Translations under genes and position numbers: made by a program
Shown here: positions 22,064 to 29,708 of the stretch, in pieces
Numbering within the stretch: position 1 is the stretch's first letter
Layout of the letters: every line of letters starts with the position of its first letter
Assembly: GCF_000236585.1 (NCBI RefSeq)
Contig: NC_017278.1
Coordinates: forward strand, 930,001-994,000
Direction of reading: 5' to 3'
Length of the DNA stretch: 64,000 nucleotides
DNA from: Thermus sp. CCB_US3_UF1
GTDB taxonomy: Bacteria; Deinococcota; Deinococci; Deinococcales; Thermaceae
Notes under the pieces: model-generated
The model's database searches: none
What the model saw: the letters and a program-made list of their open reading frames with translations, nothing else
Told to the model about the DNA's origin: nothing

Positions 22064-22828
22064 ATGAAGAAGTGGCTCCTTTTCCTAAGTCTGCTGGCGC
22101 TTCCCCTGGGCCTGGCCCAGGTGCGCACCTTTGAGCAGGTCCAGCGTGCGGGGGAGATCCGCATCGGCACCGAAGGGGCCTTTCCCCCCTTCAACTACTT
22201 TGATGCCAAAAACCAGCTCACCGGCTTTGAGATTGACCTGGGCAACGCCCTGGCCAAGAAGCTGGGCCTGAAGGCCACCTGGATCACCCAGGCCTTTGAC
22301 ACCCTCCTCATCCAGCTCAACCAGGGCCGCTTTGACTTCGTCATCGCCTCCCACGGCATCACCGAGGAGCGGGCCAAGGCCGTGGACTTCACCAACCCCC
22401 ACTACTGCACCGGCGGGGTCATCGTGGCCAAGAAGGGCGGGCCCAAGACCGCCAAGGACCTCCAGGGTAAGGTGGTGGGGGTGCAGCTAGGCACCACGTA
22501 CATGGAAGCTGCCCAGAAGATCCCTGGGGTCAAGGGGGTTCGCACCTACCAGAAGGACCCCGATGCCCTCCAGGACCTTCTGGCGGGCCGCCTGGATGCC
22601 TGGATCACCGACCGCTTCGTGGCCAAGGAGGCCATCAAGGAGCGCAAGCTGGAAGGGACCCTGCAGCTTGGCGAGCTGGTCTTCCAGGAGAAGGTGGCCA
22701 TGGCGGTGGCCAAGGGGAACAAGAGCGTTTTGGAAGCCCTCAACCGCGCCCTGGCCGACTTGATGAAAGACGGCACCTACGCACAAGTATCCAAGAAGTG
22801 GTTCGGCGAGGACGTCCGGTGCCGGTAA
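22064..22828 (+). CDS. Amino-acid ABC transporter substrate-binding protein
   Basis: A 254-residue periplasmic binding protein of the polar amino-acid family (SBP_bac_3). A signal peptide (MKKWLLFLSLLALPLGLAQ) is followed by EIRIGTEGAFPPFNYFD, GFEIDLGNALAKKLG and FDFVIASHGITEERAKAVDFTNPHY, the usual ligand-binding lobes. It works with the permease that follows; the ATPase of the set is separated by two TRAP genes and lies at 26708. The ligand cannot be fixed from sequence; glutamate, glutamine or a related amino acid is likely. Confidence 0.9.
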   Translation: MKKWLLFLSLLALPLGLAQVRTFEQVQRAGEIRIGTEGAFPPFNYFDAKNQLTGFEIDLGNALAKKLGLKATWITQAFDTLLIQLNQGRFDFVIASHGITEERAKAVDFTNPHYCTGGVIVAKKGGPKTAKDLQGKVVGVQLGTTYMEAAQKIPGVKGVRTYQKDPDALQDLLAGRLDAWITDRFVAKEAIKERKLEGTLQLGELVFQEKVAMAVAKGNKSVLEALNRALADLMKDGTYAQVSKKWFGEDVRCR

Positions 22829-22837
22829 ACCCCTCCT

Positions 22838-22868
22838 GGGCCCGGGGCGCCTAAGCCCTGGGCCTTTT
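22838..22868 (+). terminator. Hairpin with T-run between binding protein and permease
   Basis: GGCCCGGGGC (22839-22848) pairs with GCCCTGGGCC (22855-22864), with one G-U pair and a 6-base loop, followed by TTTT. It probably ends most transcripts after the binding protein gene, or stabilises their 3' end, giving more binding protein than permease. Confidence 0.65.
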
Positions 22869-22879
22869 CCCTGCCAAAT

Positions 22880-23668
22880 ATGCCCGCTTGGTTCCGCATC
22901 CCCCTTCTCCTCGCCCTCCTGGTGGGGGGGTATTTTCTCCTCTTCGCCCTTCTGGGCCTAGCCCTGGAACGCTACTTCCTCCTTGCGGGCTTCGGTCCCG
23001 AGCGGGCGGCCTCCGCTGGAGAGGCGTTGGCCGTGGGCGCGGAGATCACCTTGAAGCTCACCCTGATCTCCGGCCTGGCTGGCCTTTTCATCGGCATCTT
23101 TGCCGGGATGTTCCGCCTTTCCGCCCGGCCCTGGGTGCGCCTTCCCGCCACCTTCTACATCTGGGTGACCCGGGGGACGCCTCTTTTGGTGCAGATCCTC
23201 TTCGCCTACAACGCCCTTCCCCTCCTCCTCCAGCCCCTCTGGCCCGAGGCCCAGCAGGCCCTTACCCCCTACTGGGCGGCCTTTATCGCCCTTTCCTTCA
23301 ACGTGGGGGCTTACAACGCCGAGGTGGTGCGGGCCGGGATCCAGGCTATTCCCAAGGGGCAGTGGGAGGCTGCCTGGTCCTTGGGCCTTTCCCCTGCGGA
23401 CACCATGCGCTTCGTCATCCTGCCCCAGGCCCTGCGCATCGTGGTGCCGCCCTTGGTCAACAACGTGGTGGCCCTTCTCAAGGACTCCTCCCTGGCCAGC
23501 GTCATCGCCCTGACCGAGCTGGCCCTTTCCGGGCAGCGCATCATCTCCGCCACCTTCCGCCCGGTGGAGGTGTACCTGGCGGTGGCCGCCCTATACCTTC
23601 TCCTGACCACGGTCCTCACCCTCTTCACCAACCGCCTGGAGGGGCGGCTCAGGGTGGCCGGGCGCTAG
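22880..23668 (+). CDS. Amino-acid ABC transporter permease
   Basis: A 262-residue inner-membrane permease of the HisM/GlnP family with about five membrane segments. Recognised by WVTRGTPLLVQILF and the cytosolic coupling motif EAAWSLGLSPADTMRFVILPQALRIVVPPL. It contacts the ATPase encoded at 26708. An N-terminal hydrophobic stretch begins at residue 5. Follows a hairpin terminator, so it depends on read-through or a weak local promoter. Confidence 0.9.
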   Translation: MPAWFRIPLLLALLVGGYFLLFALLGLALERYFLLAGFGPERAASAGEALAVGAEITLKLTLISGLAGLFIGIFAGMFRLSARPWVRLPATFYIWVTRGTPLLVQILFAYNALPLLLQPLWPEAQQALTPYWAAFIALSFNVGAYNAEVVRAGIQAIPKGQWEAAWSLGLSPADTMRFVILPQALRIVVPPLVNNVVALLKDSSLASVIALTELALSGQRIISATFRPVEVYLAVAALYLLLTTVLTLFTNRLEGRLRVAGR

Positions 23669-23671
23669 GGC

Positions 23672-23700
23672 TTGTGTAGGAAAGGGGCAAGGGGTATACT
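23672..23700 (+). promoter_or_regulatory. Promoter of the TRAP-TAXI genes
   Basis: TTGTGT (23672-23677), 17 bases, TATACT (23695-23700). RNA would begin near 23707, leaving a leader of about 26 bases with AAGGGGGTG before ATG 23733. This shows that the TRAP genes can be transcribed independently of the ABC genes around them. Confidence 0.7.
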
Positions 23701-23732
23701 ACTTGATGGTGCTAAGGGGGTGTAACTTTATT

Positions 23733-24683
23733 ATGAGGATCAGGAGCTGGCTTGTTTTGGGAGTGGCCTTCCTAGGGCTTTCGCTAGCTCAAGAGTTTAT
23801 CACGATTGGTTCGGGATCTACCACGGGAGTCTACTTTTTTGTAGCTACTGGCATGGCCAAGCTAGTGAATGATGCCAACGTTGGTTTGCGGGCCAACGCT
23901 CGATCTACGGGAGGTAGCATCGCTAACATCAACGCCATCGCTGCTGGAGAGTTTGAGATGGCTTTGGCTCAAAATGACATCGTTTCCTACGCCTACCAAG
24001 GTTGTTGCATCACCGCTTTTGATGGCAAGCCGATAAAGGGAATTCGGGCTCTAGCTAACCTATATCCGGAAGTTATTCATATCGTGGCCCGTGCGGACGC
24101 TGGCATCCGCACCGTGGCCGACCTGAAAGGGAAGCGGGTGGTGGTGGGGGATGTGGGCTCGGGCACGGAGCAGAACGCCCGGCAGATCCTGGAGGCCTAC
24201 GGCCTGCGCTTTGAGGACCTGGGCCAAGTTATCCGGGTGAGTCCTAACCAAGGGTCTCAGCTCTTGCAGGAGAGGCGGGCAGATGCTTTCTTCTTCACCG
24301 CTGGTCTAGGGGCAAGCGCTATTCAGCAAGCTGCCCTTACCACGCCCATTGCCCTGGTGGCGGTGGACCTGGGCAAGGTGCAGGCCATCGCCAAGAAGTA
24401 CCCCTTCTACGTGGGCTTTAACATTCCTGGGGGGACGTACAAGGGGGTGGACGTGACCACGCCCACGGTGGCGGTGCAGGCCATGCTGATCGCTGCGGAG
24501 AAGCTTTCCCCTGACACCGTCTACCGCTTCATGAAGGCGGTTTTTGCTGACCAGGCGGCTTTCAAGAAGATCCACCCCAACCTGGAGCGTTTCTTTGACC
24601 TTTCCCGGGCCGCCCGGGGCCTGCCCATCCCCCTGCACCCCGGGGCGGAGCGCTTCTACAAGGAAATCGGGGTCTTGAAGTAG
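23733..24683 (+). CDS. TRAP transporter substrate-binding protein, TAXI family
   Basis: A 316-residue periplasmic receptor with a signal peptide (MRIRSWLVLGVAFLGLSLAQ) and TAXI-family blocks: TIGSGSTTGVYFFVATGMAKLVN, STGGSIANINAIAAGEFEMA and GDVGSGTEQNARQIL. It delivers ligand to the fused TRAP permease that follows. A T. thermophilus TAXI protein has been crystallised with glutamate or glutamine, so an acidic amino-acid ligand is possible. The first 400 bases use many codons ending in A or T and differ sharply from all neighbours. Upstream in-frame ATG 23706 is possible as a leaderless start; 23733 is preferred for the RBS and signal peptide. Confidence 0.9.
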   Translation: MRIRSWLVLGVAFLGLSLAQEFITIGSGSTTGVYFFVATGMAKLVNDANVGLRANARSTGGSIANINAIAAGEFEMALAQNDIVSYAYQGCCITAFDGKPIKGIRALANLYPEVIHIVARADAGIRTVADLKGKRVVVGDVGSGTEQNARQILEAYGLRFEDLGQVIRVSPNQGSQLLQERRADAFFFTAGLGASAIQQAALTTPIALVAVDLGKVQAIAKKYPFYVGFNIPGGTYKGVDVTTPTVAVQAMLIAAEKLSPDTVYRFMKAVFADQAAFKKIHPNLERFFDLSRAARGLPIPLHPGAERFYKEIGVLK

Positions 24684-24699
24684 GCTTAGGAGCAAGCCC

Positions 24700-24725
24700 G
24701 GGGGCCCCGCCTGGGGCCCCCTTTT
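24700..24725 (+). terminator. Intrinsic terminator or attenuator after the TAXI gene
   Basis: GGGGGCCCC (24700-24708) pairs perfectly with GGGGCCCCC (24713-24721) around a 4-base loop, followed by TTTT. Like the hairpin at 22838, it sits between a binding-protein gene and its permease gene. Confidence 0.75.
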
Positions 24726-24737
24726 CCTGGAGGAAGC

Positions 24738-26707
<1,970 letters not shown>

Positions 26708-26711
<4 letters not shown>

Positions 26712-27451
26712 AGGCGGTGGAGCCCATCATCCGCATCCGGAACCTGCACAAGTGGTTTGGCCCCTTGCACGTGCTCAAGGGGATCCATCTGGAGGTGGCC
26801 CCGGGGGAGAAGCTGGTGATCATCGGCCCCTCGGGTTCGGGGAAGAGCACCCTGATCCGCTGCATCAACCGCCTGGAGGATTTCCAGGAGGGGGAGGTGG
26901 TGGTGGATGGCCTGAACGTGAAGGACGAGCGGGCCCTGCGGGAGGTGCGGCGGGAGGTGGGGATGGTGTTCCAGGGGTTCAACCTCTTTCCCCACATGAC
27001 GGTGCTGGAGAACATCACCCTGGCCCCCATGCGGGTGCGGGGGTGGAGCCGGGAGCGGGCGGAGGCCAAGGCCCTGGAGCTTTTGGCCCGGGTGGGGATT
27101 GTGGACCAGGCGCGGAAGTACCCGGGGCAGCTTTCCGGGGGTCAGCAGCAGCGGGTGGCCATCGCCCGGGCCCTGGCCATGGAGCCCAAGGTGATGCTGT
27201 TTGACGAGCCCACCAGCGCCCTGGACCCGGAGATGGTGGGGGAGGTGTTGGACGTGATGCGGGACCTGGCCCGGGGGGGGATGACCATGGTGGTGGTGAC
27301 CCACGAGATGGGGTTTGCCCGGGAAGTGGCGGACCGGGTGGTCTTCATGGACGGGGGTCAGGTGGTGGAGGAGGGGAGGCCGGAGGCCATCTTCACCGCG
27401 CCCAAGGAGGAGCGGACCCGAGGCTTCCTCCAGCGGGTCCTGCACCATTAG
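26708..27451 (+). CDS. Amino-acid ABC transporter ATP-binding protein
   Basis: A 247-residue ATPase of the GlnQ/HisP type. Walker A is GPSGSGKST, the Q loop [12 protein letters not shown], the signature [15 protein letters not shown], Walker [13 protein letters not shown] and the switch His is in VTHEMG. The frame is open far upstream inside the TRAP permease gene, but ATG 26708 is the first sensible start, giving a normal family length and an ATGA overlap. It is the missing motor of the ABC binding protein and permease at 22064 and 22880, split off by the TRAP genes. Confidence 0.93.
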
Positions 27452-28682: not shown

Positions 28683-29096
28683 TCAGTAGCCTAAGCTCAG
28701 TTCTTGGCTCTCCCTGACCAGCTCATCCAAAAGGGCCTGCCCGCGCTTCTTGGCCGCTTCCCGGTAGGCGAGCAAGTCTTGGACCTTCACTCGGCGGTGG
28801 CTTCCCACCTTGTGGTAGGGAATCTTTCCCTCTTCCAGAAGGCGGATGAGGTAGGGGCGGGATACACCCAAAAGCTCCGCCGCCTGCTGCGTGGTGAGCT
28901 CTGCCTCCAAGGAAACGACGCGCACGGGTTCCCCCTTCAGCAAGAGTTCAAAAAGTTGGCGCAGTGCCTTGGCCAGTTCCGGGGTAAGGGTAAGGGAAGC
29001 TGCGCCCAGGCGCAGCACCCGGCCGGGGATAAGCTCCTCCAAGAAGGACCGGAGCTCTTCGGGGGGTAATGCCTTGGGCAAGACCGAGATGGCCAT
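28683..29096 (-). CDS. Excisionase-type HTH protein, likely antitoxin
   Basis: A 137-residue protein with an excisionase/MerR-like DNA-binding domain at about residues 67-115 (TTQQAAELLGVSRPYLIRLLEEGKIPYHKVGSHRRVKVQDLL, quoted here only in part by position). The N-terminal part is unrecognised. Proteins with this HTH are often the antitoxin partner of PIN-domain toxins; the neighbour at 29135-29708 is a PIN protein. It has its own promoter, so antitoxin could be made without toxin. The gene order (toxin first) is the reverse of the common order. Confidence 0.7.
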   Translation of the reverse strand: MAISVLPKALPPEELRSFLEELIPGRVLRLGAASLTLTPELAKALRQLFELLLKGEPVRVVSLEAELTTQQAAELLGVSRPYLIRLLEEGKIPYHKVGSHRRVKVQDLLAYREAAKKRGQALLDELVRESQELSLGY

Positions 29097-29100
29097 AGCC

Positions 29101-29134
29101 CCCTTAGCCTAGCAGACAAACGAAATAAACGCAA
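29101..29134 (-). promoter_or_regulatory. Promoter of the HTH antitoxin gene
   Basis: Read on the minus strand: TTGCGT, a 17-base AT-rich spacer, and TAGGCT, followed by 9 bases including AAGGGGG before the ATG at 29096. The -35 begins immediately after the restored stop codon of the PIN gene. Confidence 0.55.
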
Positions 29135-29708
29135 CTAGAATTTTCCCGGGTAGGCCGCCATGGCCTTGGCGAAGTTTTTGAGGCCAGCCCCTTCCAGGCT
29201 TTGCAAGAAGGCCTTGGGCTCCAGGGTTGACCAGGCGTCGCCGTGGGCGCCGCAGGGCCTGGAGGAGGGGGCTAGGCAGGAAGGGGTTGCGCACCAGCCT
29301 CTCGGTTAGCTCCAGCAGATAGGTGTCGGGATGCATGGCCACGAGTTCCCACGGTTCCAGCTTCTTTTGGGGAAAGTCCTTGGTGTTGAAGGTGAGGATG
29401 GCCTCGGCGCCTCCCCAGAAGGCGGCGGCCACCACGTGGCGGTCCTTTTCGTCGGGGAGATCCACGTGCTCCACCAGGGGCTCTTGCCAGGCCAGGGCTT
29501 CCTGCATTCGTAGGGGAATGGTCCGGATGCGCTCCCTGTCAAGTTCAGGGCGGGCTTGGAGAAGGTTGCTCATCCACTCCTCGTGCACCCGCTCGCTCCA
29601 TTTGAGCCGGACCAGGTCGTTTAGGGCTAGCTCCATGAAGAGATCGCGGGTTGGTGCGGGGTAGAGCACGCACGCGTCCACAAAGAGCACCCTCGGCAGA
29701 GGGCTCAT
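29109..29708 (-). pseudogene. PIN-domain ribonuclease-like toxin, C terminus apparently frameshifted
   Basis: The continuous frame codes 199 residues. The PIN core is intact: D11 in [10 protein letters not shown], the DEKDRHVVAAAF block and FNTKDF. After RRRLVNP (about base 29225) the sequence turns basic and unlike a folded protein. One base out of frame it reads EPKAFLQSLEGAGLKNF then AKAMAAYPGKF and stops at 29135, with normal Thermus codon use. An extra G in the CCTGGAGCC stretch (minus strand) would explain this. The restored gene would be 29135-29708. The catalytic core may still work, so pseudogene is a best guess; a sequencing error is the alternative. Confidence 0.6.

Follow-up and report, generated by a model that had tools for sequence, protein, structure and literature searches.

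The gene for a TAXI-family TRAP transporter solute-binding protein in Thermus sp. CCB_US3_UF1 is a mosaic, and the explanation that best fits our data, to which we give a probability of about 0.88, is that a resident Thermus TAXI gene received two tracts from a diverged, lower-GC homologue through homeologous recombination. The strain was isolated from Ulu Slim, Malaysia, and its genome consists of a chromosome of 2,243,772 bp and a plasmid of 19,716 bp (PMC4599208). We analyzed a window of 64,000 nucleotides of the chromosome, in which the gene occupies positions 23733..24683 of the forward strand (chromosome 953733-954683). The composition of the gene is mosaic, its divergence is confined to tracts, the pattern is specific to the strain, the flanks are ordinary and the open reading frame is intact and encodes a conserved protein. 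Composition and divergence that are limited to the same tracts and are absent from the orthologues are the pattern by which recombination is recognized, and the exchange between a resident gene and a diverged allele that was put forward in the original prediction is well supported. Such mosaics of bacterial genes are a well-known type of event, and the mechanism is well known likewise.

The encoded protein has 316 amino acids and scores 332.5 bits against the curated family model TIGR02122 (cut-off 84.35), which places it in the family and confirms that it remains a full-length TAXI receptor. It matches PDB 1US4 with E=1.8e-168 and is an orthologue of the T. thermophilus receptor TtGluBP (TTHA1157, PDB 1US4/1US5); TAXI orthologues are present in most of the same-genus genomes searched. 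The downstream gene (24738..26711, forward strand) encodes a TRAP transporter fused permease, the partner of the TAXI receptor, with 665.9 bits against TIGR02123 (cut-off 320.65), so the TAXI gene is linked to a TRAP fused permease. The upstream gene (22880..23668, forward strand) is, by family match, an amino-acid ABC transporter permease, which is kept at this place in most Thermus loci. The genes for the TAXI receptor and the TRAP permease separate the permease gene of an amino-acid ABC transporter from its ATPase gene, and window positions 22064-27451 can be described as an interleaved transporter cluster in the order binding protein, permease, TAXI, TRAP permease and ATPase. In another Thermus genome (G009) the 5' end of TAXI is found twice, at the end of contig C2 and at the start of contig C13, one copy following directly on a gamma-glutamyltransferase gene; each contig breaks off at about codon 60 of TAXI, as if an identical remainder had been collapsed in the assembly. 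The orthologue of T. scotoductus DSM 8553 is divided over two contigs, each fused at about the same codon to IS-looking DNA, and probably carries an IS insertion.

Segmentation by GC3 places breaks at 24101/24102, 24224/24225 and 24338/24339, with values of 0.52, 0.93, 0.53 and 0.87 for the four segments. When the gene is divided into fixed blocks by codon, A (1-121), B (122-166), C (167-203) and D (204-316), GC3 is 0.52, 0.87, 0.57 and 0.87. Block A (23690..24101, with an approximate left edge) is the donor-like 5' part and was delimited by the segmentation, the comparison with orthologues, an upstream alignment and the identity profile. It is followed on the same strand by block B (24102..24224), a resident-type island of 123 bp that the segmentation sets off, with GC3 of 0.87-0.93 and nucleotide identity to Thermus orthologues of up to 94%. 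Block C (24225..24340) is again donor-like, with GC3 of 0.53-0.57 and nucleotide identity of 67-77%, as seen in the segmentation, the orthologue comparison, the trees and the private bases, while block D (24341..24683), the 3' part, is of the resident type by segmentation, orthologue comparison and trees, with GC3 of 0.87 and 91% nucleotide identity to T. igniterrae. The BIC of the GC3 segmentation does not separate a two-segment model (373.0) from a four-segment model (373.7), and block C is supported independently of it by the comparison with orthologues. The low-GC3 blocks of the original prediction are real, and the breaks given there (24095, 24231 and 24340) lie within 2-3 codons of those of the segmentation. 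Their start, which had been put at 23733, needs a slight correction; the sliding identity profile and the upstream alignment place the left edge of the anomaly at ~23690-23730, slightly upstream of the ATG, so that it takes in the Shine-Dalgarno and its spacer. In this alignment the Shine-Dalgarno is AAGGGGGTG here and AAGGAGGTG in the relatives, and the spacer exceeds that of the nearest relative by about 3 nt. Block A includes this altered Shine-Dalgarno as well as the signal peptide.

Low-GC3 blocks were found in none of the 23 orthologues compared (22 from the same genus and one from a sister genus), in which GC3 is 0.79-0.95 in A and 0.81-1.00 in C, and a sharing of the blocks across Thermus, which would speak against an exchange, is not seen. 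Relative to the 22 same-genus orthologues the GC3 of the gene differs by -0.35 in A, -0.06 in B, -0.36 in C and -0.06 in D, and past codon 122 its worst 30-codon deficit is -0.38, compared with -0.01 to -0.21 in the other 22 Thermus. Third bases that are private to the strain among the Thermus orthologues make up 28/108 in A, 3/44 in B, 5/27 in C and 2/104 in D (each of the other 22 orthologues has 0-9 such bases in A and 0-2 in C), and a permutation test of their clustering gives p = 5e-5 over the full gene, and p = 0.02 when block A is set aside.

On the scale of the genome, when the 2,007 chromosomal genes with 100 or more codons are ranked for a low-GC3 block, the TAXI gene comes 4th. Over 320 kb of the genome of one relative and the TAXI locus itself, 277 orthologue pairs were compared, and the TAXI pair shows the largest deficit in GC3. 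By eye, ranks 1 and 3 look like an intein-type insert and an SLH surface-protein region. The strongest block of the genome lies at chromosome 234960-237728 (codons 243-639, GC3 0.64 vs 0.92), and this stretch of ~396 codons in a ribonucleotide-reductase-like protein looks, by eye, like an intein. The description of the TAXI gene as unlike any other in the window is too strong, as a gene for a PIN-like protein (window 29109-29690, reverse strand) is also low, with GC3 of 0.73 and a lowest 40-codon window of 0.45. Its neighbour (window 28683-29096, reverse strand) has GC3 of 0.76, and by eye the two are probably a horizontally acquired toxin-antitoxin pair.

The nucleotide identity to T. igniterrae, the nearest sampled species, is 88% in the 5' flank, 75% in A, 94% in B, 76% in C, 91% in D and 87% in the 3' flank, and the sliding identity profile shows the same steps. 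Within the genus the identity of the flanks is ordinary, with 83-88% for the upstream permease and 79-87% for the downstream TRAP permease. The protein encoded by A is 74-87% identical to Thermus, only slightly below normal, and the third-position identity at its conserved residues is 0.41-0.51, compared with 0.66-0.86 (5th-95th percentile) in other Thermus pairs; for B and D this measure is mostly inside the normal range. The case for block A is therefore mainly one of synonymous sites, since its protein is nearly as Thermus-like as that of other orthologues. In block C the protein itself is changed, with an identity to Thermus of 68-76% (by codon blocks) against a median of 97% in other Thermus pairs. 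It has six private amino acids (S175, E180, F186, F188, A190 and A200), with V166 in addition at the edge, and in the alignment another genus of the family also has P171, N172, F186, F188 and A200.

Protein trees were built for each segment with 45 sequences. In the tree of B and D together the gene joins T. igniterrae (100/97), in the tree of A it lies inside the Thermus group (99/97) and not with T. igniterrae, and in the tree of C it falls outside Thermus and groups with 14 genomes that belong to another genus of the family (96/95). The separate phylogenies that had been proposed as a check thus do not give one common tree, but no AU test on these short segments reaches significance, whether for A with T. 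igniterrae (p=0.063 for protein and 0.281 for DNA), for the 37 residues of C with Thermus (p=0.2-0.5) or for B and D with the other genus (p=0.234). Nucleotide trees are unsafe because of the base composition bias in A. Given the short segments, these AU tests and the disturbance of the DNA trees by A, we take the phylogenetic argument as supporting and not as decisive.

One option that these trees suggest is a variant of the best explanation, in which there were two independent recombinations with different donors, a Thermus-like allele for A and, for C, a homologue that is closer to another genus of the family. We regard this variant as possible but the less likely one, since A and C share an unusual GC3, from which the sampled members of that genus differ (0.76-0.92 in C), and C is short, and its Thermus placement is not rejected.

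It is improbable that the whole gene was replaced by a low-GC homologue and that B and D were then converted back, which would give the same pattern in more steps, or that A/T-rich codons were selected in the start region to open the mRNA. In most orthologues, too, GC3 is slightly lower over codons 1-121 (0.79-0.95) than over the remainder of the gene, yet selection at the start cannot account for block C or for a stretch of 120 codons.

Less probable again is local hypermutation or AT-biased mutation in situ, by which a targeted mutator, such as a deaminase or an error-prone synthesis of tracts, would have struck A and C while selection kept the protein. The well conserved protein of A with synonymous sites near saturation would fit such a process, as would the predominance of C>T (28) and G>A (13) among its third-position changes from the Thermus consensus and the outcome of the donor searches described below. 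However, 19 third-position changes in A are transversions (G>T, C>A or C>G), and this mixture of transitions and transversions is not explained by a single deaminase. Furthermore, C has several amino-acid replacements at positions that are fixed in the genus, some of which are shared with another genus of the family, and the sharp edges and the untouched 123-bp island are hard to produce by mutation. The substitutions of A and the clustered replacements of C are both explained if the gene recombined with a diverged homologue. That a mixed culture gave rise to an artefact of the assembly or of the consensus is hardly credible: the donor allele is known from this record only, but the genome is finished at 21x 454 and 115x Illumina coverage with errors checked between the platforms (PMC4599208), the reading frame is intact, the differences are mostly synonymous and both sides are ordinary.

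For block A, a DNA search of 111 Deinococcota genomes found no allele above 79% identity. An exact-peptide search of 84,980 species genomes gave Thermus matches only; its patterns included YFFVATGM and ADAFFFTA, each with residues that are private to this gene among Thermus, so a donor allele in a searched species genome should have shown up. No donor was found in plasmids by protein or DNA search, in phages by protein search or in IMG/VR by peptide search. This does not exclude recombination because the donor may be unsampled, and we infer that it was an unsampled thermophile with GC3 near 0.5. Gene conversion from a paralogue within the genome was also considered and rejected, as the other TAXI genes of the genome are just 32-35% identical and neither A nor C has a second DNA match.

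Under homeologous recombination, the first tract would span ~400 bp from just before the start codon and the second ~115 bp in the middle of the gene. The probable route is natural transformation, in which single-stranded donor DNA would enter through the Thermus DNA-uptake machinery and then pair with the resident gene through RecA; the genome paper of the strain lists comEA, comEC, pilD, pilF, pilC, pilQ and other competence genes (PMC4599208). If the donor strand was kept in patches, the 123-bp resident island B would be left inside, and a single event seems to us more plausible than two. The A-B-C-D order could stem from one event because in B. subtilis a single round of natural transformation yields several close, discontinuous donor segments, some of them shorter than 100 bp (PMC13344027).

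The gene resembles the mosaics made by transformation with divergent DNA, as in B. subtilis x B. vallismortis and in Campylobacter and Neisseria alleles, in its alternating donor and recipient tracts, in tracts as short as ~100 bp, in the intact reading frame and in the resident-type flanks. It differs from them in the strongly different base composition of its unsampled donor, and its tract divergence is ~22-33%, compared with ~10% in B. subtilis x B. vallismortis (PMC13344027). Thermus was reported to acquire genes from Meiothermus and from unknown sources, and the recipient genus, the uptake system and the often unknown donors are the same as in our case; the part of that study considered here deals with whole genes and islands, whereas the TAXI case is an intragenic exchange (Kumwenda et al. 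2014, PMC4180962).

A second, smaller patch that is similar in kind to the TAXI mosaic is found in a gene for a DctP-type TRAP receptor (chromosome 1511381-1512463). In its codons 162-198 GC3 is 0.53, against 0.81-0.92 in four orthologues, and nucleotide identity is 0.78, against 0.85-0.92 outside the patch, with the protein identity nearly unchanged. A third candidate, codons 126-168 of a proC-like gene (chromosome 1541131-1541916), was rejected, as its GC3 is low but its identity to orthologues is not below that of its flanks; as a control it indicates that low GC3 alone, without local divergence, is not enough. As both the TAXI and the DctP-type receptor genes of the strain carry such patches, one can speculate that an unsampled thermophile with GC3 near 0.5, Thermus-like transport proteins and a shared habitat is a recurrent source of short tracts for Thermus TRAP receptor genes, though we consider this rather unlikely.

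Another question that is raised by the mosaic is whether the ligand changed, as the original prediction had thought possible. Ligand residues were read by eye from alignments with VcGluP and TtGluBP, with the VcGluP numbering from PMC11574862. Seven of the eight positions of the ligand shell are kept (Y34, S62, Q80, Y111, E113, T189 and G191), among them the key residues of the glutamate-binding TAXI type (Tyr34 and Gln80, and also Ser62, Glu113 and Thr189), and the eighth, the aromatic clamp, has the conservative change Y188F. In VcGluP the equivalents of Y34 and Q80 mattered most, and binding was affected only negligibly in an alanine mutant at the equivalent of Y188 (PMC11574862). This makes a change of ligand unlikely, and judging from the sequence the mosaic protein most likely continues to bind glutamate or glutamine and to work with the TRAP permease encoded next to it. 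It is like TtGluBP (PDB 1US4/1US5) in its full-length orthology and its conserved ligand residues, and unlike it in the private replacements of block C (among them Y188F, and V190A beside T189) and in P36F near Y34. With P36F and V190A so near, the affinity or the closure of the receptor could differ.

The gene offers a clean natural case of intragenic homeologous recombination in a thermophile, with tracts that differ by ~22-33% from all Thermus alleles sampled, a high divergence for a RecA-mediated exchange. Exchanges of 100-400 bp can escape or mislead phylogenies of whole genes and gene finding by composition; a simple gene caller based on codon usage began the TAXI gene at 24084 and lost nearly all of block A. 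The main interest of the mosaic lies in the unsampled, lower-GC donor lineage that it predicts.
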